A DNA stretch of 58,892 nucleotides from a virus. Positions 454-30,558 of this stretch are shown here, one piece after another. Within the stretch, counting starts at the first letter, position 1. Each line of letters opens with the position of its first letter. Made by a program: the position numbers and the translations under genes. The notes below the pieces were generated by a model. It did not search any database, was not told where the DNA came from, and saw only the letters and a list, made by a program, of their open reading frames with translations. The stretch is taken from positions 1-58,892 of the IMG/VR virus record IMGVR_UViG_3300021962_000120; one strand, given 5' to 3'.

Positions 454-473
454 CAAGACCTCCTGTGCGTGCT

Positions 474-1274
474 ATGACAGGCCGCTCATTTGAAGAATCC
501 TTTCGGATTTTAAAGAGTCTCGTAAGTGAAATTGCCGACCCTACAATGCGAACAACTGGAAACAAATTAAGAGTCAATCCCAATGCCGCTGAGCAATATC
601 ACCGGATGAACCAAGGAAAACGGGACAGGCGAGCAGATGAAATTGCAGAAGAAAACATGACACCCAACATGGTGATTAACGAAAAAATGTCAAGAAGGCT
701 CCAACCCGTACTTGGTTCGCACGAATTGGACTTGTACCAAGATGACCGATACCAAAACAAAAGAGTTCCACCGGAAATACAAATAGGACATATGGTAAGT
801 GATTCACAAAACCTCTTCCATCGCAACCAACTTCATGAAATGCCCGCACCTCTCTCATTTGCTGAAGTACAACAAATGCAAGGTAGTGGACTTCAAGGCC
901 CACTTCCATATGAACAAATACGGCAGTTTCCCAATGAACCCACCAACCCCTTCAAATTGAAATCCAGCCCGTTTGACCTTGCATGGACAATCCTCAAGGG
1001 TGATGATGTACTTGAGCCAATCCGCCAACGCCAACGCCTCCGTGAACAAGAACCATTTAACCCATTTACCGTAAGACCACCCTCAACCCCGCCACCAATG
1101 CGTGAAGAGCGAAGCCTACCAATGGGAGGTACTGAAGGCATGTCCCGTGGCCCAATGCGTTCTCGCAAGCGAGGTAACCCTGCCAGTTCACCACGATTTA
1201 TACGACCGGGCTTCCGCTCAACTGAAGCCATGCCTTTGACGGATGAATCAGCCGAATACAGAATGGAATTATGA
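474..1274 (+). CDS. Motif-bearing protein of unknown function
   Basis: This is a 266-residue protein of unrecognised family. It carries two copies of the window-wide helical motif: FEESFRILKS close to the N-terminus (DNA 486-521) and PFDLAWTILKG near the middle (DNA 966-1001). The remainder is polar, with many Arg, Gln, Met and Pro residues, and looks partly disordered. An in-frame GTG at 465 is possible, but ATG 474 is preferred because it sits about 24 bp after a TATA box, as expected for a leaderless archaeal mRNA. I infer a virion or assembly-associated protein because the motif is shared with genes in the packaging region; no enzyme motif is visible. Confidence 0.75.
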   Translation: MTGRSFEESFRILKSLVSEIADPTMRTTGNKLRVNPNAAEQYHRMNQGKRDRRADEIAEENMTPNMVINEKMSRRLQPVLGSHELDLYQDDRYQNKRVPPEIQIGHMVSDSQNLFHRNQLHEMPAPLSFAEVQQMQGSGLQGPLPYEQIRQFPNEPTNPFKLKSSPFDLAWTILKGDDVLEPIRQRQRLREQEPFNPFTVRPPSTPPPMREERSLPMGGTEGMSRGPMRSRKRGNPASSPRFIRPGFRSTEAMPLTDESAEYRMEL

Positions 1275-1461: not shown

Positions 1462-1617
1462 ATGATGCTGGCCGCACTGTTTATCCTGTCATTCATTGCA
1501 GGATTTTTCACAGTGTGGCTGGCTACACCCGACCCAAAAGACACCATAATTTTCATTGATGACGAAGAGGCGTTTCACCGAGCATGTTACAACGGTATGC
1601 GGAGGGGAATCCAGTGA
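1462..1617 (+). CDS. 51-residue single-span membrane protein
   Basis: The frame opens with MMLAALFILSFIAGFFTVWL, a hydrophobic stretch that fits one membrane helix or an uncleaved signal anchor. A short acidic then basic tail follows (IIFIDDEE and CYNGMRRGIQ). Its stop codon overlaps the GTG start of the HMG-CoA lyase (shared GTGA at 1614-1617), so the two are probably translationally coupled. No family was recognised. The overlap and the hydrophobic helix are direct observations; membrane location is inferred. Confidence 0.6.
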   Translation: MMLAALFILSFIAGFFTVWLATPDPKDTIIFIDDEEAFHRACYNGMRRGIQ

Positions 1618-2510
1618 ATATATCCATCTACGAGGTCGGCCCTCGTGATGGACTACAAGCCCTTAAACAAATTGTGCCAACAGCCACGAAAAAAGAACTC
1701 ATTGCCAGCCTATACGCCGCAGGCTTGCAATCTATAGAAGAGGTGAGTTTTGCTCACCCTCGCCTCATGCCTCAAATGGCTGATGCTGAAGAAGTGTTTG
1801 ACAAAGGCAGTGCGCTGGTCATGAACAAGCGTGGCTACGACCGGGCTGTAGCGGCTGGCGTGCAAAAGTTCAACATTGTATTTTCACCGTGCGAGACTTT
1901 TAACATGAACAACATGGGCAAAACCCGCAGTGAAATCGTGCTCATGTACAAGACCTTCATGGACAAAGTGCCCAAGAAGAATGTGCGGGTGTACATCAGC
2001 ATGGCGTTTGGTTCACCCGACAGCGGAACGCCTTCACTTATCACACTTATTTCGTGCATTCGTGATGCAAAGATGTTTGGCGATACCGTGGTTTTTGCTG
2101 ATACAGTAGGCATTGGTACTGAAAAGGATATAGCAGAATTAGCCGAACTCGCCAAAAATGAAGGGATAAAAGCCGCCTTGCACTTGCACCACAATGGTAG
2201 TGAAGAGCGTGCACTACAATTAGTCCGTGCCGCTCTTATGAATGGGATTCGTGAAATTGACTCAAGCATCGGCGGGCTTGGTGGCTGTCCGTTTGCCAAA
2301 AACAGCGGAGCGAATCTGTCTACCGAAACATTAGTGTCTCATTTGCACGGTTGGGGTTTTACCACGGGTGTGGACGAAATAGCCCTCAAAGCGGCTTTAC
2401 AGATTGCTCAGCAAATTAAACTTAAAGAAACTGGCCATGGAAAAGAGGCATGGACGGGCGAAACATGGTTGGACTTAAATCTCCCAAGTGCTTCTCGGCC
2501 AGCAATTTGA
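1614..2510 (+). CDS. Hydroxymethylglutaryl-CoA lyase (DRE-TIM metallolyase), viral metabolic gene
   Basis: A 298-residue TIM-barrel enzyme that matches HMG-CoA lyase along nearly its full length. That enzyme splits HMG-CoA into acetoacetate and acetyl-CoA in leucine and ketone metabolism. Numbered from GTG 1614, the signature EVGPRDGLQ gives R11 and D12, E42 fits the third DRE residue, H190 and H192 are the metal histidines, C225 lies in GGLGGCP, and N234 is nine residues later, as in the human enzyme. The one notable change is H-L-H-H-N-G where most relatives have H-x-H-D-T. GTG 1614 is preferred over ATG 1584 because GGAGG sits at 1601-1605 and the start overlaps the previous stop. The last 89 bases overlap the minus-strand gene. 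A related lyase of the same family is the main alternative. Confidence 0.88.
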   Translation: MNISIYEVGPRDGLQALKQIVPTATKKELIASLYAAGLQSIEEVSFAHPRLMPQMADAEEVFDKGSALVMNKRGYDRAVAAGVQKFNIVFSPCETFNMNNMGKTRSEIVLMYKTFMDKVPKKNVRVYISMAFGSPDSGTPSLITLISCIRDAKMFGDTVVFADTVGIGTEKDIAELAELAKNEGIKAALHLHHNGSEERALQLVRAALMNGIREIDSSIGGLGGCPFAKNSGANLSTETLVSHLHGWGFTTGVDEIALKAALQIAQQIKLKETGHGKEAWTGETWLDLNLPSASRPAI

Positions 2511-4074
2511 CTACATGCTCCATATCGGGGTGAATGTTTTCAATAAGCGTACCTTCGTTAGTGTCGGTCATTTTGTGCGCTCGGTCAAGAGTGGTAAGGT
2601 CATTTCGCAGTGCTTCAGTGATTTGATGTGGCAACTGCAACTCGCCTTTGAGCATACGCCAAGCCAAATCCATCGGGAAACTTTTCTTAAAGTGCCCCCG
2701 TTTAAGCAATTGCAAATAAATAGCCTGCAACAATACGCTTAATTTTTTAGGGTCGGTAATGATACTACCTTCAAAGGCAGGCATACCAAAAATAGAAGTA
2801 AAATTAGCCGCTATTGCTTTACCTTCTTCAGTATCAAGAAACTTAGTGTGTTCCATTGCATTTACTAAGTTTGAAACTTCATTTTTATGCCTCTTTGCTT
2901 CTTCCGCCGCCGCTTTGTTGGCCGCCCTTGTTTCAGCGGCTTTTCTGTTACGCTCATCACGCTCTTCTTGCGCTGTTTGATTGATTCCGTCCTGCACTGC
3001 TTTTTGATTCTGCTCATCTTTTTTTGCTGTTGCTTCCAATCGGCGTTTTTCACGCTCTTCACGCTCTTGCTGTAGTTTTTGTTGTGTAAATGCTAACATG
3101 TCATCTTTACGATTAAGGTTCCTTTGCATAAACGAATGCGGTAATACAGTGACGGCTCCTTCTTTTTCTTTTCTTTTATTTGCCTCTAAGGTGCTTCTTA
3201 ACGATGGTTCACTAAATGCATCTTGTAGTACGGGAGTATATTCTTGCAAAGTTTTACTTTGCCAGCCATCCTTTTTTCTTTCAAACAAGTTAGGGACAAT
3301 AGCACGCACTTTTCTGTTTTCTCTCCAATCGGGTAAATCGCTAAAATTAACAAAAGAGCCAACCGCATTTAACATTTGATGAGCAGGAATGTTGTACATA
3401 CCGGGAAACTTCTTTTGGTCGCTATGTTCTTGGTCATACATGAAATCAGCAGGATGGCGTGCATCAATCCACCTACCTTGCTCATCCTCGTATTCATTTT
3501 TCTCATTGGGCGTTAGTCCTTCCACCATTCCAGCACGGATTTTTCCATGGTGTTGTTCTCCAAAATAATTTTGTCGTTGCATATTTTCAATGGCTTGGTC
3601 AATAATGCGTTGGCGTGCTTGTGCGTATTCGGGGGTTTGATATTGAGAAGTAAAGTACATGTCTTTTAACAACCGCCACGACATGTCCATGGCTTCTCCC
3701 GTAGCGATTTGTGAGCCAGCCTTGGCTTTCTCGGCCATTTGCATGTTTTGGTCGGCCATGCGTTGTTGAGATTCCCGATTGGCTTGGGCGTAGGCCGCAC
3801 CAGCATCAGCCGCCGCCTTGCCTCGCTCTTTTATTTTATCAGTGAATGATTGTTGATTGTTAGCCTCGGTGATGTTTTCACCACCAGTAAGAGCATCACC
3901 CACCTTACCGCCTGTTTTTGCACCTAAAACGGCACCAGCAATACCACCGAGAACCGTGCCAACACCCGGAACAATACTTCCAAGAGCCGCACCACTGGCC
4001 GCACCACTGGCCGCACCACCTACAGTTCCAACAGCCTGTCCAATGTCACCTTTGACAAGGACACGCCTGCTCAT
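2422..4074 (-). CDS. Glycine-zipper and coiled-coil protein with two helical tags
   Basis: A 550-residue protein read on the minus strand. It starts MSRRVLVKGD and continues with a Gly/Ala-rich stretch (about residues 10-60: SGAALGSIVPGVGTVLGGIA) typical of glycine zippers that enter membranes. A long charged Glu/Lys/Arg/Gln coiled-coil region (about 325-405) follows. It carries the recurring helical motif twice, as AMDMSWRLLKD (DNA about 3652-3700) and PMDLAWRMLKG (DNA about 2643-2690). The shape recalls phage internal or ejection proteins that insert into membranes, but no family match is certain. Its start is 51 bp from the divergent gene at 4126 and they share a promoter. Its C-terminal end overlaps the HMG-CoA lyase gene. 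Confidence 0.8.
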   Translation of the reverse strand: MSRRVLVKGDIGQAVGTVGGAASGAASGAALGSIVPGVGTVLGGIAGAVLGAKTGGKVGDALTGGENITEANNQQSFTDKIKERGKAAADAGAAYAQANRESQQRMADQNMQMAEKAKAGSQIATGEAMDMSWRLLKDMYFTSQYQTPEYAQARQRIIDQAIENMQRQNYFGEQHHGKIRAGMVEGLTPNEKNEYEDEQGRWIDARHPADFMYDQEHSDQKKFPGMYNIPAHQMLNAVGSFVNFSDLPDWRENRKVRAIVPNLFERKKDGWQSKTLQEYTPVLQDAFSEPSLRSTLEANKRKEKEGAVTVLPHSFMQRNLNRKDDMLAFTQQKLQQEREEREKRRLEATAKKDEQNQKAVQDGINQTAQEERDERNRKAAETRAANKAAAEEAKRHKNEVSNLVNAMEHTKFLDTEEGKAIAANFTSIFGMPAFEGSIITDPKKLSVLLQAIYLQLLKRGHFKKSFPMDLAWRMLKGELQLPHQITEALRNDLTTLDRAHKMTDTNEGTLIENIHPDMEHVVKLLAEKHLGDLSPTMFRPSMPLFHGQFL

Positions 4075-4125: not shown

Positions 4126-5451
4126 ATGGCGAGGGTGCTGATAAGCAAAGCAACCCTCGCTGATTTTGGTGTGCCTCGTCAAGAAGTAGCCGTGCGTCAA
4201 CCCATGCCCTCGGCTGAGGAAATGGAGCGCATAGTTCGTGAAAGTGATATTGCTCTAACACCAAAAGAGTTTGCTACAAAAGTGCCGCTTATTGAGCGAA
4301 ACACAGAAGGTTTTGATGAGCGTTTTGGAGATACAGCCAAAAGATTTGACGAACAAATGGGACTGGAAGGTGCTGTAGCGCAAGGACTTATTGCAAGAGA
4401 ACATCCTCAAGTTGCAGATTTAGACCCAAGACTTACACCCTTTCTTCGTGATTACTACAGCCGTCAATCCACTTTGCCCGAACACTTTTGGAATTACCAC
4501 ACTGAAGGGCCATATTATGATGAAGAAGGAAACATTTTACCCGGCCAAGTACCTCCTGTTGATGCTGTAAAACTAATGAGTGAAAGTGACATACGCTATT
4601 TAGGTGGAAGAGAAGGTGTTGGGTTAAAACCCGTACCGTTTAGTCAATCTAATCGTAATTGGGAAATGAATGAAATACCATTAAAATATCGTGTGCCTGT
4701 AGAAAATGCTGGATTTGTAGGAGGTCTTACAGAACAAGACATTCTTAGAAATCAAGCCGGTAATGTATCGGGTAAGTTGCCAAAAGGGGTTGTTGGTATT
4801 CGGGGTTTTGGCCGTCCACAAGATAAGGCTTTTGCTCGTAGTGTTGGCAGAGAAGGTAGAGAAGCAATATATACTGCACCTATACCACCCGAAAGACTTG
4901 TAGGTGTTATGCCAAGAACACGCATGACAGAAAATGAATTAAAAGGGGGTGAACTAAGGCATTTATACGCTCCCGAAAAACCATTTGAACAAAAATTACA
5001 TGAACTTGTTTCGGATGGTATAATCTCACCTATCAATGCTATGTATGCTATGATAACCCATAGAGCACAACAAAAACACTCACCCGAACATTTATTTGAA
5101 AATCCAAACCCGTTATTGGAACTTTACCCATCACCTTCCTCGTTAATAGATACCGATGCTGGCGAAGAAAAAATGCAAAAAGTGGGAGGATGGAGAACAC
5201 CTTTTGCTACACCAAGTAAAACAGCACGGAGACAAGTTGAAAGCAATTTTAGTGATGCTTTACCACTTGCATGGCAACAAGGCGTTTTTGGTCTTGAAAA
5301 TCCATTACTTACAGAAGCCGAAAAAGAAGCGTACTTAAAAGACATTGAAAATATGAGATACATGGATGATGACACAACTCCAATAAGAGACATTGACCCT
5401 AAAAAATTGAGAAGTCTTTATCCAAAACAAGCAGGGGTGAGGTTCGGATGA
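4126..5451 (+). CDS. Unknown protein, possible weak ADP-ribosyltransferase-like segment
   Basis: A 441-residue protein. ATG 4126 (MARVLISKATL) is chosen over the upstream in-frame GTG at 4075 because the TATA box is about 25 bp before it. The N-terminus resembles those of other proteins here (MSRRVLVKGD, MSKKVLIRKQ). Around residues 225-260 it reads VVGIRGFGRP, then EAIYTAPIPPERLVGVMP. An acidic strand followed by IPPE..xGV is reminiscent of the end of some ADP-ribosyltransferase-like folds, but this is a faint resemblance and no catalytic triad was identified. It ends with ATGA overlapping the next gene, so the two are co-translated. I give it no function. Confidence 0.75.
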   Translation: MARVLISKATLADFGVPRQEVAVRQPMPSAEEMERIVRESDIALTPKEFATKVPLIERNTEGFDERFGDTAKRFDEQMGLEGAVAQGLIAREHPQVADLDPRLTPFLRDYYSRQSTLPEHFWNYHTEGPYYDEEGNILPGQVPPVDAVKLMSESDIRYLGGREGVGLKPVPFSQSNRNWEMNEIPLKYRVPVENAGFVGGLTEQDILRNQAGNVSGKLPKGVVGIRGFGRPQDKAFARSVGREGREAIYTAPIPPERLVGVMPRTRMTENELKGGELRHLYAPEKPFEQKLHELVSDGIISPINAMYAMITHRAQQKHSPEHLFENPNPLLELYPSPSSLIDTDAGEEKMQKVGGWRTPFATPSKTARRQVESNFSDALPLAWQQGVFGLENPLLTEAEKEAYLKDIENMRYMDDDTTPIRDIDPKKLRSLYPKQAGVRFG

Positions 5452-8060
5452 AGCCCGTGCAAGTCAAAAAGGCGTATTTGCCCACCATTGATGAGGCACG
5501 GGGTGTTTCGCTTGACGACATCCAAGCCTTGCGGTGGATTCCGGGTAAATATCGCTCTTCGTTTAGCCAAGCAACCCCGTTTAGAACTCCGGGTAATATC
5601 AGATGGGAAAAGGATAAAGAAGAGGATTTGGGAGAAGCCTATCGGCCAATACCGGGTTTTAGAGAAGGCACAAACTTTCAAGGTTATTTTCTAAATCCTG
5701 CCACCGCTTACGGTGCTTTGCAAGGGGATGTGGGATGGAATACCCTTGCAAATAGGGCAGTAAACCCAATTCTTCTTGGAATAACGGACACTCCTCATTT
5801 TTGGCGTACACCAAAACAAGGAGCATCAATGCAAGGTTATGCTGGTGAGGGTTATCGTTATGGAACGCTACCAAAAGCAAGTTTCGTTGAGATACCGCAC
5901 GAAACTTCTCCTATTGATATGCAACGAGCCATGATGGATTTTCAACGAAATCGTGCGTTACAAGGAATGAGTTCGGATGAGGCTTGGGACACAATGGCTG
6001 AGAAAAACCCCGATGAGTATGATGTGGCGGGTTTGTTTCCGAGAAAAATTACTGAAAACATATGGGGGCAACCAGCACAAATGGCTGGCAACCCTGTCGT
6101 TGATTTTAATTGGGAAAGATACAAAGTCGCCAGCGAACCAATGGACATCGCCTTCCAACTGCTCAAACAAAGCCTTGAACTGCAACCACCAATGACTCAA
6201 GGTGTTGAAGAAGAGCAATCAGTTGAAGAAGAAATGCCTATGCAGGAAGTTTCAATGGGTGATTACGAAACCCCCTGTGAATGTGCTGAACGAATACGAA
6301 CCCATGTAACTTCCATAATCCGAGAAGGACTTGAAAGGCTAAAGAGTAATCCACAAGACATATATCGCAGTGGTTGGGAAGTTTGGGAAGTTCCCTCTTT
6401 AATAGAAAGTAATGAAAGCAACTTAGCAGAATTAGAACAGATGAGTTGTGAAGAAATCCTACAATGGGCCGAAGGTCACTCAGTATATTCCAAAATGTGT
6501 AATAGTGGTGGGATAAGCGAAGCCGACCAAATGAAATATGCAGGTGAACCAATGGACATCGCTATGCGGTTGCTCAAAGAAGACCCGCTTCATCTTCAAT
6601 CAAGCAATACTCTCGCTCGTCGTGCAAGAGAAGAATTAGAAACTGATAAGATGGGTGAAAACAGTCCGGCTTATCAAGAAATGATGGAGCGAATGATGGA
6701 AATGTACGAACCACAAGACAATACCATTCCTCTTGAAGACAACCTTGACCAATATGCACAAGAAACAGGTAAAAATCCGTGGCGTATGTTATCCGGTCGT
6801 GAAATGCCAAATAAACACGGCGGTACAGCAAAAGTACATCTTGACCCACTAACTCCAATTCATCCTCAACAATTTTATGATTGGCAAGCAAAGAACGCCA
6901 GCGAACCCATGGAAATCGCCTTGCAACTGCTCAAAGAGGATATTGATTATGAGGAAGATGATTACATTTATCCCCATGAGCAAATATGGAATGATGAAGC
7001 AGATGAACAACTAATTGATACCACCAACTCTTTGTGGGACTATGTTAAAAACATGAGTAATGATGATAAAATAGAATGGCTAAGGCTTCAAGGTAACCCT
7101 TTCATGCAAAGAGGTATGCAACGAATGAATGGTGATTTTCCGAAACTTAGTCAGCAAGATATTGACGATTCAATTTGGGAGATGATGTTTGACGCTTGGC
7201 AAGACTCACAAATGGAAATGCCCGACGGAATTGATTTTGATTTAGGTGGTAATCGTAAAATTGAACAGACTCGTGACCCAACAAGGGCATACGCAGTACA
7301 CCCCAAGTATTGGAAAAAATTAGCCAGCGAACCAATGGACATCGCCTTCCAACTGCTCAAAGAGCGTGTAAGTCCCGAAGCCAAGCGGCACAAGTTGGAG
7401 TACGACAAGAAGTACGAGTCCACGCCGGAGCGGGTGAAGTACCGGGAGGAGTTGAACCGTGAACGCCGTCGCCGTGGTATCTACGGTAGCCACGACCATA
7501 AGGACATCAGCCACACCGAGGGCGGCAAATTGACCCTTGAAGGCGAGCATGAAAACAGGGCACGGCACTTCAAAGACAAGGGAACTCTTCGGGATTTGAA
7601 CAAAGCACAACAAACTTTACCTTCATACGACAAATCTCAAGTTGAAAGTTTGGTTAAACCCGACCAATCCACCATGTATATTTCATCAAGACCGGGAAGA
7701 GAAAAAGTCACGGCAGAAGAGCAAAGTGAAAAACATGATGCGTTGTTAGCGGCTATAGCGGAATTAAACAAAAACAAACAAATGAACATCATGACGGGTA
7801 CTGGTGAAGGTGAATGGGGTAAGGAACATTCAATTGCTATTCAAAATTATCCGCCCGAAATGAAAGAAAAATTGTACGCTTTAGCGAGACAATTTGGACA
7901 GGATGCAGTGGCCGAATCAAATGCAAGGGAAAAAGGAATGCGTTTTGTGAATCCAGCAACTCGTGAAGATACCTTTTCTTTTGGAGGTCGTGAAATACAA
8001 GAAGAACCTCGTTACAGCACCAATTTCCCGACAGGACAAAAAATTACTTTTACTGAGTAA
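5448..8060 (+). CDS. Beads-on-a-string protein with four helical tags and C-terminal HNH-like segment
   Basis: An 870-residue protein built of unrelated segments joined by four near-identical linkers: ASEPMDIAFQLLKQ, AGEPMDIAMRLLKE, ASEPMEIALQLLKE and ASEPMDIAFQLLKE (DNA 6129-6170, 6540-6581, 6897-6938, 7323-7364). The N-terminal 225 residues are of unknown fold. The segments between linkers are acidic, helical and AT-rich. The last, after residue 640, switches to GC-rich codons and reads like small phage HNH-type proteins (EYDKKYESTPERVKYREE, then HDHKDISH and an ENRARHF ending). No complete HNH set is proven. Overlap ATGA with the previous gene shows coupling. It could be a polyprotein cut by the prohead protease or one multidomain virion protein; both are inference. 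Confidence 0.8.
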   Translation: MKPVQVKKAYLPTIDEARGVSLDDIQALRWIPGKYRSSFSQATPFRTPGNIRWEKDKEEDLGEAYRPIPGFREGTNFQGYFLNPATAYGALQGDVGWNTLANRAVNPILLGITDTPHFWRTPKQGASMQGYAGEGYRYGTLPKASFVEIPHETSPIDMQRAMMDFQRNRALQGMSSDEAWDTMAEKNPDEYDVAGLFPRKITENIWGQPAQMAGNPVVDFNWERYKVASEPMDIAFQLLKQSLELQPPMTQGVEEEQSVEEEMPMQEVSMGDYETPCECAERIRTHVTSIIREGLERLKSNPQDIYRSGWEVWEVPSLIESNESNLAELEQMSCEEILQWAEGHSVYSKMCNSGGISEADQMKYAGEPMDIAMRLLKEDPLHLQSSNTLARRAREELETDKMGENSPAYQEMMERMMEMYEPQDNTIPLEDNLDQYAQETGKNPWRMLSGREMPNKHGGTAKVHLDPLTPIHPQQFYDWQAKNASEPMEIALQLLKEDIDYEEDDYIYPHEQIWNDEADEQLIDTTNSLWDYVKNMSNDDKIEWLRLQGNPFMQRGMQRMNGDFPKLSQQDIDDSIWEMMFDAWQDSQMEMPDGIDFDLGGNRKIEQTRDPTRAYAVHPKYWKKLASEPMDIAFQLLKERVSPEAKRHKLEYDKKYESTPERVKYREELNRERRRRGIYGSHDHKDISHTEGGKLTLEGEHENRARHFKDKGTLRDLNKAQQTLPSYDKSQVESLVKPDQSTMYISSRPGREKVTAEEQSEKHDALLAAIAELNKNKQMNIMTGTGEGEWGKEHSIAIQNYPPEMKEKLYALARQFGQDAVAESNAREKGMRFVNPATREDTFSFGGREIQEEPRYSTNFPTGQKITFTE

Positions 8061-8250: not shown

Positions 8251-8280
8251 TGACCACTCATGTGACCATGGTTGAGGACA

Positions 8281-8847
8281 ATGCAACAAGGTAGCAACAC
8301 TTCCGACGCTGAAATCCGACTTATGGGCCTAATTCTTGCTCAATCCGCACTTGTGGGTTTGGCAATTGGCCTGTTTGACGCTGATATGTGGTTGAACACA
8401 AATGACCCAACGGTGAATGGCTTTACTTACGCCATGGCCGCATTTTTCGTGCAAGGCATCGCCTATTATTTCTTCAAAATGTTCTTTGAACAAAACATGC
8501 AAGAAAAAGTGCGGATTCAAAACATGGAGCGAGAACGACAAGGGCGTTATCGTACTATGCAATATCAATTTGATAATCGCCGCTCGGAAATGGAACTTCG
8601 TATGCAAGAAGCCCAGTTGGAGGCTGAATTGCGTTGGATGGAAGCCAACCCCGGTAAAATGCCGCCATCGTGGGGCGTACCGGGTGGTTCTCCTTCGTTA
8701 ATTGAACAGCAAGAAAACAAACTAATTTCCAATCCACCAAAGCATTCGGCTGAAATCAAAGCACCAGTCAATCTTGGTATCAAGGAAGAAGAAACTCCTT
8801 TGAAAAAGGACGGCACTCCCGACAAGCGATACAACAAGAATGACTGA
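8281..8847 (+). CDS. Two-span membrane protein with coiled-coil tail
   Basis: A 188-residue protein with two predicted membrane helices, near residues 13-33 (GLILAQSALVGLAIGL) and 48-69 (YAMAAFFVQGIAYYFFKMFF). A charged coiled-coil region (about 70-125, rich in Gln, Arg, Glu and Met) and a Pro/Lys tail follow. The start is ATG 8281; the frame is open from TTG 8272 but the ATG has a nearby GAGGA. It opens a unit with another membrane protein and the Arf-like GTPase, so it may be the membrane partner of that GTPase. No family was recognised. Confidence 0.7.
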   Translation: MQQGSNTSDAEIRLMGLILAQSALVGLAIGLFDADMWLNTNDPTVNGFTYAMAAFFVQGIAYYFFKMFFEQNMQEKVRIQNMERERQGRYRTMQYQFDNRRSEMELRMQEAQLEAELRWMEANPGKMPPSWGVPGGSPSLIEQQENKLISNPPKHSAEIKAPVNLGIKEEETPLKKDGTPDKRYNKND

Positions 8848-8858
8848 GTGGTGATGGT

Positions 8859-9119
8859 TTGGGTCGCATTTTCAAAACGCCTACGGATGATTCTACCGAG
8901 GCTACGCTTCGTGCGATGCATACCCAAAATACGCTTGACAACTATTATGAAAAAGGTGTAGGATGGCTACGAACCATTCTTTTTGTCGGTATGGCAATAC
9001 TCATTACCAGTTATTGGGAACTACACACAGGTGAATCAGCGTGGGAAAACACAGTAGAATGGGCGTGGGGCAAAGCACAAGACTTCGCAGACTGGCTTTG
9101 GGGGCTTGTAAATGGTTGA
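8859..9119 (+). CDS. Small single-span membrane protein
   Basis: An 86-residue protein (if TTG 8859 is the start; ATG 8916 would give 67) with one membrane helix (LRTILFVGMAILITSYW) and a Trp-rich amphipathic C-terminal part (WENTVEWAWGKAQDFADWLW). It overlaps the start of the GTPase gene by 8 bases, so the two are probably translated together. It may dock the GTPase at a membrane, but this rests only on position. Confidence 0.6.
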   Translation: MGRIFKTPTDDSTEATLRAMHTQNTLDNYYEKGVGWLRTILFVGMAILITSYWELHTGESAWENTVEWAWGKAQDFADWLWGLVNG

Positions 9120-9828
9120 ACCAGCAGGCACGGCGGTTGTCGGTGCGATGGTGTGGGGCAAAGCCATCTTTAATGCGTGGAGGCCACGCAAGGTCGGTAT
9201 TTACGGAGCGGGATTGACGGGTAAAACCACACTTGACCGTTACATGACCACACCGGGCGAAATGGAAGAAATACCCGAAGAGGACAGAACAACACATTTC
9301 AAAATACTTGGACGGCACATGCTTCCTAATCCAACACGAAAGCGTGTATCTTGGAAAGGAGAAAAGCGTGTTGTCTTTTCTGCTGATGTTGGTGGACAAG
9401 AGCGGTTTTGGAATCTGTGGATAGATGATATGGTGGCTCGTCAAGTAGAATGTGTAGTGTACATGTTTGATGACCGGGCTATCAAAGGGGGTGATGAAGC
9501 CCTGCAACAAATTGCTGGCTTCAAATATCTCGTTGATGCTATAACAAACAGACATTATCGTTATCGTAATTTCAAAAGCCGATGGAAGGGCAAAAGATAC
9601 GCTCCTAAACTCGTCATGCTGGTTGCCAATAAAGCCGACCGATTCTTTGATGAAACGGCGGTGATGCTTTGGCAACAAGACCGTATCGGTGAACACAAAA
9701 TCTTTGATGCATTCCGTGATGACCTTATTCGCTTGCAAAAAGCAGGTGTGCCTACTCGTCGCTCGTTTATGGCGACAAGAATTGGGTGGAATGTGGACGC
9801 AACCATGGTAAATCTTTTAACATCGTAG
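9112..9828 (+). CDS. Arf-like small GTPase
   Basis: A 238-residue P-loop GTPase. G1 is GAGLTGKT (residues 32-39), G3 is DVGGQERF (from D92) followed by WNLW, as in the Arf/Arl family where DVGGQ precedes an invariant LW, and G4 is NKAD (173-176). The G5 region is weak (MATRIGW). A hydrophobic N-terminal helix (VVGAMVWGKAIFNAW) before the fold resembles the membrane-binding helix of Arf proteins. Such GTPases switch between GDP and GTP states to control membrane or assembly partners. It directly follows two membrane-protein genes, which suggests action at a membrane. Alternatives are a Ras-like or MglA-like GTPase. A GTPase of this type in a virus is unusual. Confidence 0.85.
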   Translation: MVEPAGTAVVGAMVWGKAIFNAWRPRKVGIYGAGLTGKTTLDRYMTTPGEMEEIPEEDRTTHFKILGRHMLPNPTRKRVSWKGEKRVVFSADVGGQERFWNLWIDDMVARQVECVVYMFDDRAIKGGDEALQQIAGFKYLVDAITNRHYRYRNFKSRWKGKRYAPKLVMLVANKADRFFDETAVMLWQQDRIGEHKIFDAFRDDLIRLQKAGVPTRRSFMATRIGWNVDATMVNLLTS

Positions 9829-9837
9829 GTGGAGAAA

Positions 9838-10008
9838 ATGACAAAAACAACAATAGCATCAGTAGGACAAACCAGTAACAGTGTACGCACCGTTATTCCA
9901 ATGTGGATTGCTGAACTTATGGGACTTGAAAAAGGTGCAAAAATTAAATGGAAATTGATTCGCACAGAAGAAGGCTACGCCGCACAATTTATAGGTGATA
10001 AACAATGA
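9838..10008 (+). CDS. AbrB/SpoVT-type swapped-hairpin DNA-binding protein
   Basis: A 56-residue protein, MTKTTIASVGQTSNSVRTVI then PMWIAELMGLEKGAKIKWKL. The pattern S-x-R-T-V-I-P-x-W-I-A-x-x-M-G-L-x-x-G-x-x-I-x-W is that of AbrB-like antitoxin or transcription-regulator folds, which bind DNA as dimers. GGTGGAG lies just upstream as ribosome site, and its stop overlaps the next start (ATGA). No toxin gene is recognisable next to it, so a viral transcription regulator is more likely than an antitoxin. Confidence 0.75.
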   Translation: MTKTTIASVGQTSNSVRTVIPMWIAELMGLEKGAKIKWKLIRTEEGYAAQFIGDKQ

Positions 10009-10931
10009 TGAACTTTACACGACCTCAACAACGACTTAGCGATGCAAATAATGCTCACTTGTATGCTTTAGCACAACAAGGCAATGCAGGACTTTCTCAT
10101 GCCGCTCTTATGGAACAGGCTACTGCTCAACAACGGATGCAAGCCATGGCTGGTGAAAACAATTTGCAAGTTCCAAAAGTGAACTTTTACCCATCACGCC
10201 ATCCCGACCCACACAAGGCTCGGCGTAAAGACATTAAACAAGCATATTCGTTGTTGATGCCTTCTAAGCGTAATATATTCAATCCAATGCGTACATTTTT
10301 TGGTCGCAAATACCGCTATGACAAACAAACCAATGTGTGTGTTGTGGACGGTTGTGATTGCGCCGTTTTAATTCAATACGACAACTTGTACGCTAAGATT
10401 TGTGATGAAGATACTGGGCGCAGTCTATGGGAAATGTATTGGCAGAACCCAGTAACAGGTGAGGCTGAAGCATTTATCGCAAAAGACAAAGTAACCAATG
10501 GGCGTAAAATGCGTGGCACCTATTGTCCCGAACACCTTCATCTCTACCATTTGCTGTGCAAGTGGGAAGCAGAAGAGGACAAAGTGCGTGAAAATAACCC
10601 ACGCCGCCTTCGTGACCATGTAAAGCGTGGTGTAAGTGTGGTTACCGTTCCTGTAGCCTCCATTACGAAGAAAGACCCAACACCACCCATGCTTGAGAAA
10701 TACGAGCCTTTCTTTGACCAGTTGATGCAAGATTCAAAGAAAACAAAAGGCATCAACATCATTCACTACCAAAACCCTGTAAGTAAACAAAATGATGTTA
10801 CCATGGTAGTGTTTGACTTGCGTATTTTTGAGCATGAATTGCTCATGATGAATCAACCAACGCAGGCTTTCCAAAACATGATGAGTAATCAAAACGCTCT
10901 TGAACAAGAAACGCTTGGATTGGGTGAGTGA
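10005..10931 (+). CDS. Unknown protein with Cys/His cluster
   Basis: A 308-residue protein of unrecognised family. The N-terminal 60 residues are Gln/Ala-rich. A middle region has Cys residues in VCVVDGCDCAV and later YCPEHLHLYHLLC, which could bind a metal. The C-terminal half is mixed alpha/beta and ends in a Gln/Met/Asn-rich tail. It overlaps the AbrB-type gene by ATGA and is followed after one base by the next gene, so it is in the same operon as the GTPase. Confidence 0.7.
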   Translation: MMNFTRPQQRLSDANNAHLYALAQQGNAGLSHAALMEQATAQQRMQAMAGENNLQVPKVNFYPSRHPDPHKARRKDIKQAYSLLMPSKRNIFNPMRTFFGRKYRYDKQTNVCVVDGCDCAVLIQYDNLYAKICDEDTGRSLWEMYWQNPVTGEAEAFIAKDKVTNGRKMRGTYCPEHLHLYHLLCKWEAEEDKVRENNPRRLRDHVKRGVSVVTVPVASITKKDPTPPMLEKYEPFFDQLMQDSKKTKGINIIHYQNPVSKQNDVTMVVFDLRIFEHELLMMNQPTQAFQNMMSNQNALEQETLGLGE

Positions 10932-12088: not shown

Positions 12089-12766
12089 ATGGCGGGGGAG
12101 CGGGTAGTCAAGCGTTCTTGCGCTTTTTGTATTTCCGAAGAGCGGGCTTCGCTTGAAGAGCAAATGCTTCAAGGGTATATTTCGGCTCGCCAGTTGGACA
12201 AAGACATGGGGTGGCGAAGTAACACCGCAGACCGTCATTACCGTAATCACATGGGGGATTATCACATGGCCGCAAACACCGATTGTGCTCTTTGTGTAAC
12301 TCCTATGCGAAGCGATTACGAGCGTGCGTACTTTGAAGATGGAAGTGTAAGTGAACATATTGCTCAAGAGATGGGTATTTCCGAGGACAATGTGTACCAC
12401 CACATGCGACACCACTTTCAGCCCCTCGTGCAAAAGTCTGCCGCTATTGAAGTTGCACTTACGGCTGGTAGTGAAATCGCTCTTCTTCGCTCAAACGCTG
12501 AGAAATTAAATCACAAACTTAGTGAGTTGTTGGACGAAGGCACAGTTCATGAAGATGGATTCGTGCGGGATGCGGTGGCTTTGCATAAAGAAGTGCGTGA
12601 AACTGTCAAAGACCTTTTGCGCTTCCAAGACCAATGGGGTGCTAAGAGTGACGGCCAACAAGTCAATCAAACATTCAACATTTTGCAAGTAGAGTTGGGC
12701 AAAGAAAGCCCCGACACATGGATGCGAATTAAGCGGCAATTGCAAGAAAACATGGGGGTTGAATAA
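12089..12766 (+). CDS. Terminase small subunit-like protein with duplicated zinc/helix-turn-helix module
   Basis: A 225-residue protein with two tandem copies of a C-x2-C ... helix-turn-helix ... H-x3-H module: CAFC with HYRNH (residues about 11-52), and CALC with HMRHH (about 66-110). This pattern, a cysteine pair followed by 'R..E....G.S...IA...G.S...VY.H...H', is known from phage terminase small subunits and related DNA-binding proteins. A helical C-terminal half follows (KLNHKLSELLDEG, LHKEVRETVKDLL). Position upstream of TerL supports a DNA-recognition role in packaging, though three large genes lie between. A transcription regulator is the alternative. It is probably expressed leaderless from the shared promoter. 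Confidence 0.7.
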   Translation: MAGERVVKRSCAFCISEERASLEEQMLQGYISARQLDKDMGWRSNTADRHYRNHMGDYHMAANTDCALCVTPMRSDYERAYFEDGSVSEHIAQEMGISEDNVYHHMRHHFQPLVQKSAAIEVALTAGSEIALLRSNAEKLNHKLSELLDEGTVHEDGFVRDAVALHKEVRETVKDLLRFQDQWGAKSDGQQVNQTFNILQVELGKESPDTWMRIKRQLQENMGVE

Positions 12767-14886
12767 TGCCAATGATGGGTCGTGGCTCCGATACTCGCAT
12801 GTACTCGCCTCGTAGCGAGTCGGACAAAATGTACTCCTCGGCTAACGAGGACGAGGACAAGTACAGCCCTGCCGACCCGGAGTACAATGAGCAAAAGCGT
12901 GAAGAAAAGAAACGCATGGCTGAGGAGAAAAAAGCCAAGCGTGCAAAAGTCAAGCACATCAAAATCCGTGCCACACAAGGATTAAGCGGAGAAGAGTCTC
13001 CATCTCCGCTGGATGACGGTAACAAGCGTGATGATGAGCGTGAAATTGGTTTGGCTGGTGGCCCTGCTGGAAGTCGTGGTACACTTCTTGACCTCGCTAC
13101 TGGGGCAAAAAGCGGAACAGGCTCAGCCATGAGTCCCGGCCTCCCAATTGCCATGAGCGAGCCGATGGAAGATGCTTGGAGTACATTGTTGAAAGAAGAT
13201 GAAGAGCCACATTCATTTAATTTAAACGAAGTGTTCAAAACTCCTAATCACGAGTGGTACGACCAAATTATGGGTATGGAAACTCCAATGGTGCAGAACT
13301 TGGTCAATAGCGGAATAATGAATGCAATGGGCTATAAAAACCACCTCTATGGAGATGCAGAAACAATAAGTGGTATGCACGAAGATGAACTTGACCCACA
13401 GGATTCAATGGACATGATAATGGAACATCGCAATTCTTTGTTGGTTTTGGATGCAATAATGCGAGGTAAAGAGCATACTATACCACAGCAATTCCGTGAT
13501 TATCACAAAAATGCGGATATGACAAGGATGCTCAGTGGTATGCCACCACATGCACAAATAGCCGCAAACTTAGCAGGTTTGTACACCAATTTGAATTATC
13601 TCGGACAACTCATTGGCCCTCAAATGGGCGAACCCGATGATGATTTTAGGACAAAGAATGCCAGCGAGCCGATGGAGGATGCTTGGAGTTCGTTGCTCAA
13701 GCAAGACGACCATGTACACGATGTTGGTGATGGTTCGGATAAAGACGCTCAACGGTATTTTGACGAAGAAGTAAAACCCGTGGTCATGAATCCCGACACT
13801 CCAAGACCATACGCAATGTTGGATAACGGTGTATTGGAATCAAAAATAGAAAGAATGATAATGAGACTTGAACCAATGGACGAAGAAATACTCAATGAGT
13901 ACAATTACCGAATGGTTGAAAATGACCTTGATGCACAAGGTAGCCCTGTAACTGATGCGGGATATGACCGTACTTTCCAAGATGTTTTTAGAAGTGAGCC
14001 GATGGAGGATGCTTGGAGTTCGTTGCTCAAGCGTGAAACTGAACGCACTATTGCAGGGCGACGGCGGCGTGAGGCTCGTCAAGAGTTTCGCCCATCTACG
14101 GGTCAATTCAAAACGCCACCGGGCGGTATGAGCGGTGGGGCTGGTGCGACGATGCGCCGCTTCAAAGCGCAAATGCGTGGTATCAAAAGCGGCAAAAAGA
14201 CGGGACTGATGAAACCACATTTGGCTGTGGAAATGAGTCACCGTGGTATTCAAACTAAACAACCGCTGTCTAAAGACCCGCAAAAGTACACGCAGTACAA
14301 AGGCCAATCCGAGGCTCGTAAAATCATGGGTGGTGTACGCACTCCGTTTTCACCGCACGCACGATACGGTGCCCGCTCCAACTACGCTGGCCCAACGGGT
14401 GCTGGCCGTATTGGAGGATTGATGCCCGGACAGCGTGGACAAATGAGCCAACCTTCATTGCGTCCTATGCGTGTACGCCAACCTCGTATGCCAAGTATGC
14501 GCCCTCCTATGCCTCCTACACCACCTATGATGCCGCCGATGCAATCCAGTGTACCCAGTGTACCCAGTATGCCCGCTCCTCCATCCAGCATTATGATGAG
14601 TGAAGAGCGATACCAAAGCGAATTGTTGAAGGCTCGCAACACGCTTCATCGTATTGAATTGCTTAACCTTATGCGACGGTTAATTCAAGCCAAAGAGCGT
14701 GAGGCTAAACTGAAGAAGTCCGAAGGTATCAAGCCCAACAGCGGCCATTTGCCACCCCACCCTGCTGGTGTTGAGCCAAGCGATGATGATGACCCCGATG
14801 GGCCAACCGAGAACCTTGAGACAGATGCCAAAACTTTTGGGCTTGACCCAGTGGGTATCATCAACAGCCGAAGGGGGCATATGTGA
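12766..14886 (+). CDS. Beads-on-a-string protein with three helical tags and Met/Pro-rich tail
   Basis: A 706-residue protein. The N-terminal 130 residues are highly charged (Lys, Glu, Asp, Ser) and probably disordered. Three copies of SEPMEDAWSxLLK follow (DNA 13153-13197, 13660-13701, 13990-14034), the last two identical through SEPMEDAWSSLLK. They are separated by 160- and 100-residue AT-rich segments of unknown fold. The C-terminus is basic, then Pro/Met-rich (PPMPPTPPMMPPMQ), then coiled coil. The same arrangement is seen in the 870-residue protein at 5448. It is likely a virion or prohead-associated protein. It overlaps both neighbours by 1-4 bases, so it is co-translated with the TerS-like gene. 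Confidence 0.8.
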   Translation: MPMMGRGSDTRMYSPRSESDKMYSSANEDEDKYSPADPEYNEQKREEKKRMAEEKKAKRAKVKHIKIRATQGLSGEESPSPLDDGNKRDDEREIGLAGGPAGSRGTLLDLATGAKSGTGSAMSPGLPIAMSEPMEDAWSTLLKEDEEPHSFNLNEVFKTPNHEWYDQIMGMETPMVQNLVNSGIMNAMGYKNHLYGDAETISGMHEDELDPQDSMDMIMEHRNSLLVLDAIMRGKEHTIPQQFRDYHKNADMTRMLSGMPPHAQIAANLAGLYTNLNYLGQLIGPQMGEPDDDFRTKNASEPMEDAWSSLLKQDDHVHDVGDGSDKDAQRYFDEEVKPVVMNPDTPRPYAMLDNGVLESKIERMIMRLEPMDEEILNEYNYRMVENDLDAQGSPVTDAGYDRTFQDVFRSEPMEDAWSSLLKRETERTIAGRRRREARQEFRPSTGQFKTPPGGMSGGAGATMRRFKAQMRGIKSGKKTGLMKPHLAVEMSHRGIQTKQPLSKDPQKYTQYKGQSEARKIMGGVRTPFSPHARYGARSNYAGPTGAGRIGGLMPGQRGQMSQPSLRPMRVRQPRMPSMRPPMPPTPPMMPPMQSSVPSVPSMPAPPSSIMMSEERYQSELLKARNTLHRIELLNLMRRLIQAKEREAKLKKSEGIKPNSGHLPPHPAGVEPSDDDDPDGPTENLETDAKTFGLDPVGIINSRRGHM

Positions 14887-19393: not shown

Positions 19394-19576
19394 ATGAACG
19401 GTTGCGAATGTGGTCACTGTGTTGGAATGGGCATCGCTTGGGATGCCCTCCAAAAGAAACTGTGTCCCGAAGGTAAAGCCGCCGCTAAACGGAAGTTCAA
19501 GGTGTACCCGTCTGCATACGCCAACGGTTGGGCTGTTCAATACTGTAAGGGTAAGTTTAGGGGGAAAAAGAAATGA
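19394..19576 (+). CDS. Small Cys-rich basic protein
   Basis: A 60-residue protein, MNGCECGHCVGMG at the start and KVYPSAYANGWAVQYCKGK near the end. The 'K-VYPSAYAN' phrase recurs in small proteins of many tailed phages and large DNA viruses whose function is unknown. Four Cys in the first half may bind a metal. It is the first of four very small genes that overlap head to tail (ATGA) between TerL and the LAGLIDADG gene. Confidence 0.75.
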   Translation: MNGCECGHCVGMGIAWDALQKKLCPEGKAAAKRKFKVYPSAYANGWAVQYCKGKFRGKKK

Positions 19577-19797
19577 AACCCTTTGATACTGCATGGCAGA
19601 TTTTGAAATCTGCTCTTCAGTACAGAGAAAATCCGTTTTATCCAGTTTATGGAGAAAGATGTCCAAAATGCGGTGGGCCGTTGTATTATCAAAAAGGTAG
19701 TGAAACAAAAGTTTGTGGTAACTTTGAATGTGGAAATGTAGTATATCCACAAGCACCACAAGAACCAGTTAATCCTTTTGCGGCGGTGAAAACATGA
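19573..19797 (+). CDS. Helical tag fused to a zinc ribbon
   Basis: A 74-residue protein. The N-terminus, MKPFDTAWQILKSAL, is a clear copy of the recurring helical motif. The rest is a zinc ribbon with CPKC, then CGNFEC about 17 residues later. It is the simplest member of the tagged set: one tag plus one small domain. It overlaps both neighbours by 4 bases. Confidence 0.8.
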   Translation: MKPFDTAWQILKSALQYRENPFYPVYGERCPKCGGPLYYQKGSETKVCGNFECGNVVYPQAPQEPVNPFAAVKT

Positions 19798-20396: not shown

Positions 20397-21713
20397 GTGG
20401 TCAATCCAGTGGTCATTATGTGGGGGAGTCTGTTTATCGGTGACGAGTACGATGTGCCGTTGCAGGTTGCAGACGACTTTTCCCACGATGTATTGAAAAG
20501 TTTGGCTCAACATCCCTATTTTCAACCTAACCAAGTGCCACTTGTTTTTGTTAAAAACGATTCATCAGTAAAAGACAATATATCATCATTTTCAGTAAAT
20601 GGTGATGGATGGTTTGAAACCAAATACGGTACTGATGCTAACACTATTATTCGTATGTGTCGCAAAATGCGCCGACATGACAAAGCGTTTCGGGAAGAGT
20701 ATGACGGTATCATCAAAGACATACGCCGTGTAAAAGCCATGGAAATTGATTTGACAATCAAATCTCTTACATGGGCAAACGGTATGGAAGATGTTATACG
20801 CAACATTGGTCTTGATGACCGCTCTCTCAAAGCATTGCGTAAGTTTGGTGAATCAAGAAGTACCAGTTTGCAAAAAGCCTGCCAACAATACCTTAAGGCA
20901 ATTACTGTATTGCAACACCTTAACGACAAGTTAGATTGGGACACTATAGACCAACAAAATTGGGTTGATGCTAACGAAATGAAAAAGGATGCTCAAACAA
21001 TGTGGAAAAATACCTTACATCAAATTGATAATTTGAAAAAAACGGACATAGCCGCACTTGAATATGCATCAAAATTACTTGAAGTAGAAGGTGCTTTAGG
21101 AAGTCAAGAAATTGTGCGTAGGGGTTATAATATCCTTAACAAATCTATGACGGCTGGAAAAATGAGTTCACTTCTCAAAATGTATGGTGAAGAAGTAGAT
21201 GTGTACAAAGGAAGTGAACGGCACACATATGTGAAAAAGGGTACAAACGGTTTCATTGTTAAGGATATTTGGGCATACACGGCTGGTTTTGTTGATGCTG
21301 ATGGAAGCATTTTCATTTCCGAGCGTGGTGACCCTCGTGTAACCATTGTAGCCAGCGGTGAAAATGGGAAAATACATTGCGAGGAATTGCAAAAAATGAT
21401 TGGATGTGGGCGTTTAGTCTCCGACCAAAAGTTGGCCAAAAACACCATCAAACCTGTTCATCGGCTTATTTTTTCTTCAAAGGACGACATTCGTGATATT
21501 CTCAAAGGAGTGCTTCCACATCTTAAACTTAAATCGTTGCAGGCAAAGGCTGTTTTGAATTACATTGAGGAAAAAGATTCTATGCGAAAAACAGAATTGT
21601 ACCAATTGGTAACATACAACAATTGGAAAGAGCATAAAAACAAAGCCGCTTCTCTTCTTGATAAGTGGGGCATCAATGCTGACACGATAGGCGTATATGC
21701 GGAGGGATTATGA
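20397..21713 (+). CDS. Unknown domain fused to a LAGLIDADG homing endonuclease
   Basis: A 438-residue protein. Residues 1-280 are helical and of unrecognised family (an alternative start is ATG 20418). Residues about 288-438 form a LAGLIDADG domain with the active-site helix YTAGFVDADGSI (294-305, with the catalytic acid in DADG), followed by the usual beta strands and a KSLQAKAVL second helix. One motif is present, so it would act as a dimer. LAGLIDADG enzymes cut DNA at specific sites and spread their own gene. The domain runs to the C-terminus without intein splice motifs, so it is a fusion and not an intein. It sits between TerL and portal and ends with ATGA overlap. Confidence 0.85.
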   Translation: MVNPVVIMWGSLFIGDEYDVPLQVADDFSHDVLKSLAQHPYFQPNQVPLVFVKNDSSVKDNISSFSVNGDGWFETKYGTDANTIIRMCRKMRRHDKAFREEYDGIIKDIRRVKAMEIDLTIKSLTWANGMEDVIRNIGLDDRSLKALRKFGESRSTSLQKACQQYLKAITVLQHLNDKLDWDTIDQQNWVDANEMKKDAQTMWKNTLHQIDNLKKTDIAALEYASKLLEVEGALGSQEIVRRGYNILNKSMTAGKMSSLLKMYGEEVDVYKGSERHTYVKKGTNGFIVKDIWAYTAGFVDADGSIFISERGDPRVTIVASGENGKIHCEELQKMIGCGRLVSDQKLAKNTIKPVHRLIFSSKDDIRDILKGVLPHLKLKSLQAKAVLNYIEEKDSMRKTELYQLVTYNNWKEHKNKAASLLDKWGINADTIGVYAEGL

Positions 21714-23897: not shown

Positions 23898-24239
23898 ATG
23901 ACTGAATCCTCAAATGCCGAGCAATTGATTGGTGTTCTCATCAACAAAATGGAGTCCATGGACTCTAATCTTATGCTCCTTAAGGCGGAAAACGAGGCTC
24001 TCAAAAATCTCATTAACAACCCACAACGCCTTCTTCGCAAAATGGGGCTTGTGAGTGTAAGCACCCCCTTTACTACCGATTTGCAAATTGACCCATTCCG
24101 TGGTGACATGGAACTTAACAGTAGTGCATTGCTCAAGAGCCAGCCCGGTTTTGGCACCATGAGCAACGAAGATATTCACGCCATGTCGTGGGAAGATATT
24201 CACGAAATGGCTAACAGTGCAAAGGAGGCAGTACAATGA
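23898..24239 (+). CDS. Small coiled-coil protein sharing a C-terminal tag with the scaffold
   Basis: A 113-residue protein. A coiled-coil stretch (MDSNLMLLKAENEALKNLI) is followed by a linker and a C-terminus reading MSNEDIHAMSWEDIHEMANS. That last segment matches the end of the protease-scaffold protein (STQDLANMGWDEVHALAQRT), so the two may bind the same partner. The ribosome site GAGGTGA overlaps the previous stop. It may be a minor scaffold or chaperone; this is inference from the shared tail. Confidence 0.7.
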   Translation: MTESSNAEQLIGVLINKMESMDSNLMLLKAENEALKNLINNPQRLLRKMGLVSVSTPFTTDLQIDPFRGDMELNSSALLKSQPGFGTMSNEDIHAMSWEDIHEMANSAKEAVQ

Positions 24240-24805
24240 AACCCCGCCCAGTTGAAAATGGATATTTAGCAAAAGCCATTGAACTTGAACAACGCCTTGA
24301 GCGAATTGAAAAGGCCAAGTGTGATTGCGGCAAAGAGCCTTGTGAGTGCAAAGACTGTCCAAAGTGCGGTTCTAAAATGAACAAGATGGGTTGCATGAAG
24401 ATGGGTTGCGGCGGCAAAATGGAAAAAGCCGAACCGGGATTCAAGCCCGAAAAAATCACGGACATCAATCCTTCTTTCCACGCCGAGTCGGGTGGACAAA
24501 CCAAGAGTGGTTACTTCACCACCAACGGGCGCACCATTGAGACTGAGGATGCGCCAAAGAAAAAGAAGCCAAAGGAAGCAACCAACATGGAGCAACTTGG
24601 CTCTCGCATGAACCCTCACGAGGGTAGCGGCGTTGAGCGTGAAGAAGGTGAGTCGCCCGTTAAGAAAATGAATCCAAGAGCGGCTATGCGAGAAAGTGGC
24701 GCACCAGTGATGTGTGGGCTTTGCGGCGGCACTCAGCGAACAGGGTGCTTGCTCCACGAGGGTGGTATGGATTTGCACGCTTGCCCACAGTTTAAGCCGC
24801 TATGA
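24236..24805 (+). CDS. Cys-rich small protein
   Basis: A 189-residue protein beginning with a helical stretch (AIELEQRLERIEKA) and a dense Cys region (CDCGKEPCECKDCPKCG), which could bind two metal ions. A polar, probably disordered middle and a second cluster (CGLCGGTQRTGC, later HACPQF) follow. The start has a strong AAAGGAGG just upstream and overlaps the previous stop by 4 bases. No family was recognised. Confidence 0.65.
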   Translation: MKPRPVENGYLAKAIELEQRLERIEKAKCDCGKEPCECKDCPKCGSKMNKMGCMKMGCGGKMEKAEPGFKPEKITDINPSFHAESGGQTKSGYFTTNGRTIETEDAPKKKKPKEATNMEQLGSRMNPHEGSGVEREEGESPVKKMNPRAAMRESGAPVMCGLCGGTQRTGCLLHEGGMDLHACPQFKPL

Positions 24806-30519: not shown

Positions 30520-30526
30520 CGTGTGG

Positions 30527-30535
30527 TATATATAC
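30527..30535 (+). promoter_or_regulatory. TATA box for the protease-capsid unit
   Basis: TATATATAC is centred at about 30531, about 28 bp before ATG 30559. It lies in the only short gap between the 1905-residue gene and the head genes, so it probably drives late structural genes with a leaderless or near-leaderless message. Confidence 0.6.
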
Positions 30536-30558
30536 TACAACAGAAAGTCGGATGTTTA

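Follow-up and report, generated by a model that had tools for sequence, protein, structure and literature searches.

Membrane-acting small GTPases of the Ras/Arf type are characteristic of Asgard archaea and of eukaryotes. The locus described here, in which an earlier note had read an Arf-like GTPase beside two membrane-protein genes, raises the question of what such a switch does in a tailed virus. The window, i.e., the whole stretch of DNA analysed, spans 58,892 bases and corresponds to a linear virus record in IMG/VR. Judged from its gene content, it belongs to a magrovirus-like tailed virus, and the type of virus in turn suggests Poseidoniales, an abundant group of ocean archaea, as the presumed host. 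The marks of Magrovirales are present in the window or its long relatives, namely an MCP and a portal related to those of Druskaviridae, PolB, and an HMG-CoA-lyase-like gene; the MCP is 36.6% identical to that of HVTV-1, and the portal, protease, and MCP were assigned through PHROGs matches. The HMGL-like gene (HMG-CoA lyase family, window 1584-2510, E 2.9e-22) borders the late cluster, a placement shared with Aoguangviridae.

The locus and its features are as follows (window positions):

8272..8847, + strand: membrane protein of 191 aa, probably two-span; its C-terminal helix is long and charged (hydropathy; HMM comparison)
8859..9119, + strand: single-span membrane protein, 86 aa, overlapping the GTPase start by 8 nt (one TM, KD 1.63)
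9112..9828, + strand: Ras-superfamily small GTPase, 238 aa, ATG start (motifs, profile, predicted fold)
9121..9180, + strand: hydrophobic helix near the N-terminus (residues 4-23), presumably the membrane anchor (both AlphaFold models, hydropathy)
9205..9228, + strand: G1/P-loop GAGLTGKT, residues 32-39 (G32...K38-T39), with conserved G-K-T
9286..9291, + strand: G2 candidate Arg-Thr, residues 59-60, placed by spacing in alignments; alternative T75/S75
9385..9399, + strand: G3 DVGGQ, residues 92-96, followed by the signature W100..W103..D106 M107..R110 (family alignment)
9628..9639, + strand: G4 NKAD, residues 173-176, preceded by A172 (family alignment)
9772..9780, + strand: G5 position ATR, residues 221-223, preceded by M220; SAK in clade B (alignments)
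9838..10008, + strand: small ORF of 56 aa, immediately downstream of the GTPase gene and possibly in the same operon (AbrB-like look, no family match)
10005..10931, + strand: Cys/His protein; a similar gene follows the clade-B GTPase (L171:9766-10428)

A core gene and its membrane-protein neighbours

Relatives of the GTPase were encoded on 118 stretches in a first scan of IMG/VR, and later scans raised this number to 212 and then to at least 516. A second clade (B) was found by profile in two contigs that are binned with a 'Maricaulis' MAG and bear viral protease and MCP genes; 118 further stretches of this clade occur in IMG/VR, and its GTPases are 27-32% identical to those of clade A, to which the window belongs. 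Clade-A contigs reach 101-115 kb, and Apasviridae, at 108 kb, are nearby in size (PMC12999244). PolB is present in all eight long relatives (8/8) and lies in two parts in the 92-97 kb clade-B genomes, a split that has been described for Aoguangviridae (PMC10768690). No close cellular homologue was found in 84,980 species genomes, in which only three short marine MAG contigs matched, with the same gene order as the viral loci. Viral contigs of the group were binned in MAGs of Maricaulis, Cytophagaceae, and an Asgard archaeon (contigs L082, L171, L172 (G002), L083 (G001), and L084 (G003)), and homologues in those MAGs are thus likely to be binning errors.

The GTPase gene is present in 47 of the 48 testable clade-A contigs with TerL, the 48th having a copy just outside its stretch on the same contig (L118), and in 61/61 testable clade-B contigs with MCP; additionally, it follows the gene for the two-span protein in 53/53 related loci. 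This presence throughout the 48 and 61 testable contigs and the 53 loci identifies it as a core rather than an accessory gene. It lies on the same strand as terminase, portal, protease, and MCP and, in clade B, about 1.6-2 kb past the MCP gene. The cassette is located 1.3-2.6 kb downstream of MCP in clade B; in clade A it precedes TerL by 7-9 kb. Promoter and terminator scans gave signals near background. In the 10-97 kb part of HVTV-1 (Druskaviridae), neither a profile match nor a protein combining a P-loop with NKxD was detected.

The two membrane-protein genes that the earlier note had placed upstream, one of them overlapping the GTPase, are borne out, and their order is fixed in both clades. 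In clade A, a probable two-span protein of ~190 aa, a one-span protein of ~86 aa, and the GTPase follow each other in nearly every locus, usually touching or overlapping, while in clade B a two-span protein of ~130 aa and a one-span protein of 72 aa precede the GTPase in the same order. The single span of the smaller protein, which consists of a short polar N-terminus, the TM segment, and an amphipathic C-terminal tail, is clear; the two spans claimed for the larger one stand less firmly in the window, where TM1 is strong but the second segment is only moderately hydrophobic (KD 1.21, compared with above 1.4 in many relatives). Homology of these proteins between the clades was not demonstrable by hhalign (probability 0.1-0.3), so that their partnership with the GTPase rests on gene order and topology. 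On this basis, the three proteins likely form a physical or functional module.

Several other features of the head-gene region and its surroundings were recorded. An ORF of 1905 aa in the head-gene cluster (window 24802-30519) carries an apparent ATP-dependent DNA ligase domain; ligase-like counterparts of 840 aa occur in clade B (L171:2274-4811 and L172:6871-9399), and HVTV-1 has a long 'zeta toxin' ORF at this place. In both virus clades, the head protease and a small protein encoded nearby have similar C-terminal ends, of the form MxWxD(I/V)HxM (window 23898-24239 and 30523-31920; L171:1490-1735 and 4842-6071); this motif is probably a capsid-binding tail of scaffold and protease. A further motif, (E)PM(D/E)xA(F/W/M)xxLLK, recurs in six ORFs (window 465-1274, 2422-4074 (-), 5448-8060, 12766-14886, 19573-19797, and 34692-35447), with up to three or four copies per protein and 14 matches in total, where shuffled proteins gave a mean of 1.0, and could be a capsid-loading or protease-recognition signal. 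The ORF between terminase and portal (window 20397-21713) has a homing-endonuclease-like C-terminal half (PHROG HNH endonuclease), and an open frame of >5,200 aa (window 43239-58892), which runs past the end of the record, probably encodes a giant tail or adhesin protein.

Fold, motifs, and affinity of the GTPase

The G1, G3 (DVGGQ, with W100 and LW103 close downstream), and G4 motifs claimed from the sequence are all present in the exact ORF, and they persist throughout the family. Conservation was counted over 212 distinct proteins of both clades. The G-K-T of the P-loop is kept by every clade-A row that has letters there (122/122) and by every row of clade B (88/88), and D92/G95 of G3 and N173-K174-x-D176 of G4 are kept in essentially all 212 relatives. 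The Arg-Thr of switch I, tentatively assigned to G2 by spacing, is likewise conserved and reads RTVG in clade B; G5 is the canonical SAK in clade B versus ATR in clade A. The textbook SAK and RTVG of clade B guide the reading of the more divergent clade-A motifs. Against close relatives, the gene shows a dN/dS of 0.02-0.07, the differences being mainly synonymous, and this purifying selection, together with the motif conservation across the 212 relatives, goes far beyond chance.

Single-sequence searches gave weak matches (Pfam Roc, E 0.018; PDB ARL8A, E 0.13). Among family members, the best Pfam E-values were 1.4e-4 for MMR_HSR1, 3.6e-4 for Roc, 0.0015 for SRPRB (matched by 11/42 members), 0.0023 for Ras, and 0.0025 for Arf. 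The family profile searched against PDB sequences placed first 8oun (E 7e-4), an archaeal 'GTP-binding protein' and Asgard ArfR, followed by SR-beta (5ck3, 0.009), Rab33B, and Arl8/10. An earlier AlphaFold model from 38 near sequences was weak (pLDDT 73.5); the addition of clade B, giving 42 sequences of both clades, raised the pLDDT to 83.8, with a pTM of 0.81. In Foldseek searches of the PDB with this model, the best 50 matches were almost only Rab, Ras, Rho, Rag-like, and Arl GTPases (best E 2.5e-8), and the small-GTPase fold is unambiguous. The protein is, with near certainty, a small GTPase, and the claim of a true member of this class in a tailed virus of archaea is upheld by fold, motifs, and family profile. 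A different P-loop class mistaken for a GTPase, such as a packaging ATPase or kinase, is exceedingly improbable and was rejected, for although a P-loop by itself is unspecific and the single-sequence Roc match is weak, NKxD is found in all rows and SAK in clade B, the fold search returned almost exclusively small GTPases, and an HMM-HMM comparison with the virus's own TerL gave a probability of 0.2, versus about 94 for Asgard ArfR and RasL.

Its placement among the small GTPases was examined with Asgard ArfR and RasL proteins from the MAG behind contig L083. HMM-HMM comparison (hhalign) related the viral family equally to both (ArfR probability 94.6, E 6.5e-8; RasL 94.2, E 1.1e-7), whereas single-sequence scores of the viral profile were 16-19 bits for canonical ArfR versus at most 6 for RasL. 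In the tree, the viral family occupies its own long branch and ArfR forms a separate group (97/93); however, a grouping of the virus with canonical ArfR was not rejected (p-AU 0.175). The Arf-like designation therefore stands in part: the best single-sequence scores and the top PDB match point towards it, but hhalign does not separate ArfR from RasL, SR-beta and Rab33B rank close behind 8oun, the tree keeps the viral family on its own branch, and the switch glutamine, present in the DVGGQ of the window, is frequently replaced in relatives. The helix described as amphipathic is present at residues 4-23 in both models; it is hydrophobic, and its moment of about 0.30 indicates no more than moderate amphipathicity. 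The Gly2 myristoylation site of eukaryotic Arf is absent, its place being taken by Val, Ser, Ala, or Thr. As read from these comparisons, the viral GTPase appears to constitute its own family of the Ras superfamily, with Arf-like features but only a possible place within Arf itself.

A proposed role at the host membrane

We propose, tentatively and at a confidence approaching but not reaching the probable, that the protein is a membrane-tethered small GTPase, forming its own Ras-superfamily family and encoded by a core late gene, which acts as a GTP switch with two membrane partners, most likely in egress. The N-terminal hydrophobic helix would insert into the cytoplasmic membrane, and the GTP-bound form may dock on the cytosolic coiled tail of the two-span protein, on the N-terminal tail of the one-span protein, or on both. 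GTP loading or hydrolysis would then turn the three-protein complex from inert to active, presumably late in infection, when the cassette is expected to be expressed. The active complex could gate or build a membrane opening through which the progeny leave a host that presumably lacks peptidoglycan. In this it would be comparable to holins and the PVAP pyramid system, but timed by GTP.

The choice of egress over another membrane task, which is plausible rather than probable, follows from a host presumably without peptidoglycan, from the resemblance of small late membrane proteins to typical exit proteins, and from the finding that no exit gene is named for these viruses in the literature consulted. 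Small membrane proteins of late operons also serve in assembly, entry, and superinfection exclusion. The exit of tailed viruses from archaea without pseudomurein is an open question; viruses of such hosts need a route that does not involve an endolysin, and a review of the subject knew of no holin gene in any archaeal virus isolated up to its time (PMC4456609). No exit gene is named for magroviruses in PMC12596118, and the search for holin sequences yielded nothing beyond a chance-level PHROGs match (E 0.34). The absence of the GTPase from the searched part of HVTV-1 implies that related viruses exit without it. A stronger version, in which the cassette is a universal, essential, GTP-driven membrane machine of magrovirus-like viruses, found in no other tailed virus and controlling progeny exit, appears doubtful.

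An unlikely alternative is an assembly platform, in which the GTPase and its partners would hold proheads, portal, or tail parts at the membrane and control when a maturation or packaging step occurs, with hydrolysis freeing the finished particle. The cassette does lie inside the morphogenesis cluster and is as universal as assembly genes are, and a Cys/His protein, judged by eye to be alike in the two clades (CVV(D)G..., RGTYCP(E/K)H), stands beside the GTPase in both. However, tailed viruses generally assemble without a GTPase, the related HVTV-1 combines head genes of this kind with no such GTPase in the part searched, and the position relative to the head genes differs between the clades while adjacency to the membrane genes is kept.

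It is less likely that the viral GTPase controls the host by mimicking or competing with a host small GTPase, thereby redirecting membrane traffic, the cell surface, or division, or blocking superinfection at the membrane. In its favour, regulation is what small GTPases do, Rab/Ras copies occur in giant viruses of protists, and the presumed N-terminal membrane helix resembles that of Arf and ArfR, whose GTP forms bind membranes (PMC12554972). Yet genes for host interaction tend to be patchy in distribution and to evolve fast, in contrast to this strongly conserved gene, which occurs in every testable genome. The scan of species genomes also found no close cellular homologue, only the three short contigs with viral gene order.

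A GTP-binding scaffold that hardly hydrolyses, i.e., a structural element of a membrane complex that does not cycle, is improbable. It would account for the retention of the water-positioning Gln of Ras and Arf in only 74/212 sequences; at this position, clade A otherwise has Glu (36), Asp (12), or His (2), and clade B has Glu in 88/88. However, the other switch residues are invariant, the conserved Arg-Thr of switch I could supply a catalytic Arg, and Glu at the place of Gln is not inactivating in Ras, for which Q61E is reported to hydrolyse faster.

Whichever membrane task applies, the data suggest a GTP-controlled step at the host membrane that is apparently undescribed. No small GTPase of magroviruses, Poseidoniales viruses, or tailed viruses was found in the literature searched, although earlier magrovirus papers may list the gene. 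That a distinct small-GTPase family belongs to the core gene set of abundant ocean viruses, whose presumed hosts are archaea other than Asgard, shows that prokaryotic tailed viruses have made use of a Ras/Arf-type switch, probably at the membrane; the three adjacent genes offer a handle on virus exit, assembly at the membrane, or host control.

Comparison with known systems

No tailed-virus counterpart of the GTPase was found in phage records, PHROGs, the best 50 BFVD rows, or the literature searched; INPHARED phages, PHROGs, PADLOC, and NCBIfam gave no direct match above the cut-off, and the top BFVD rows were giant viruses of eukaryotes. The Rab/Ras proteins of these viruses (mimivirus, klosneuviruses, and pithoviruses) are similar in fold and are the only such viral proteins among the BFVD matches listed, and the mimivirus Rab 5xc5 is among the Foldseek PDB matches. 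However, they are clearly cell-derived Rab, Ran, or Ras proteins of protist viruses, share 10-17% identity with the present family, are not core genes, and are not paired with membrane genes in this layout.

Among cellular proteins, Ras, Rab, and Rho (RasL) have the same fold and the best Foldseek E-values, and clade B shares with them the SAK G5 and an xTxG-like switch I; the viral family differs from them in DxGG versus DTAG and in having an N-terminal helix instead of a C-terminal lipid motif. SRPRB is an Arf-like GTPase with an N-terminal membrane segment that acts on a partner protein at the membrane, but the viral protein lacks an SR-alpha partner, has a short helix rather than a long TM, and belongs to a viral gene cassette. 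Asgard ArfR and eukaryotic Arf/Arl share with the viral family DxGG(Q) with a Trp soon after, a membrane-type N-terminal helix, and, in clade A, A-T at the place of G5. The viral family departs from them in the ~10-20 additional conserved residues that separate helix 1 from switch I in clade A, in its W..W..DM..R signature, in the frequent swap of Gln, in the Ras-type SAK of clade B, and in the lack of Gly2. Furthermore, it occurs far outside Asgard archaea, the only group reported to have ArfR (PMC12554972).

As exit systems, holins and PVAP provide the analogy proposed here, in that small late membrane proteins open the host membrane; unlike the viral cassette, neither has a GTPase. If egress is indeed its task, the cassette would represent the first case of a prokaryotic virus timing its egress through a GTPase.
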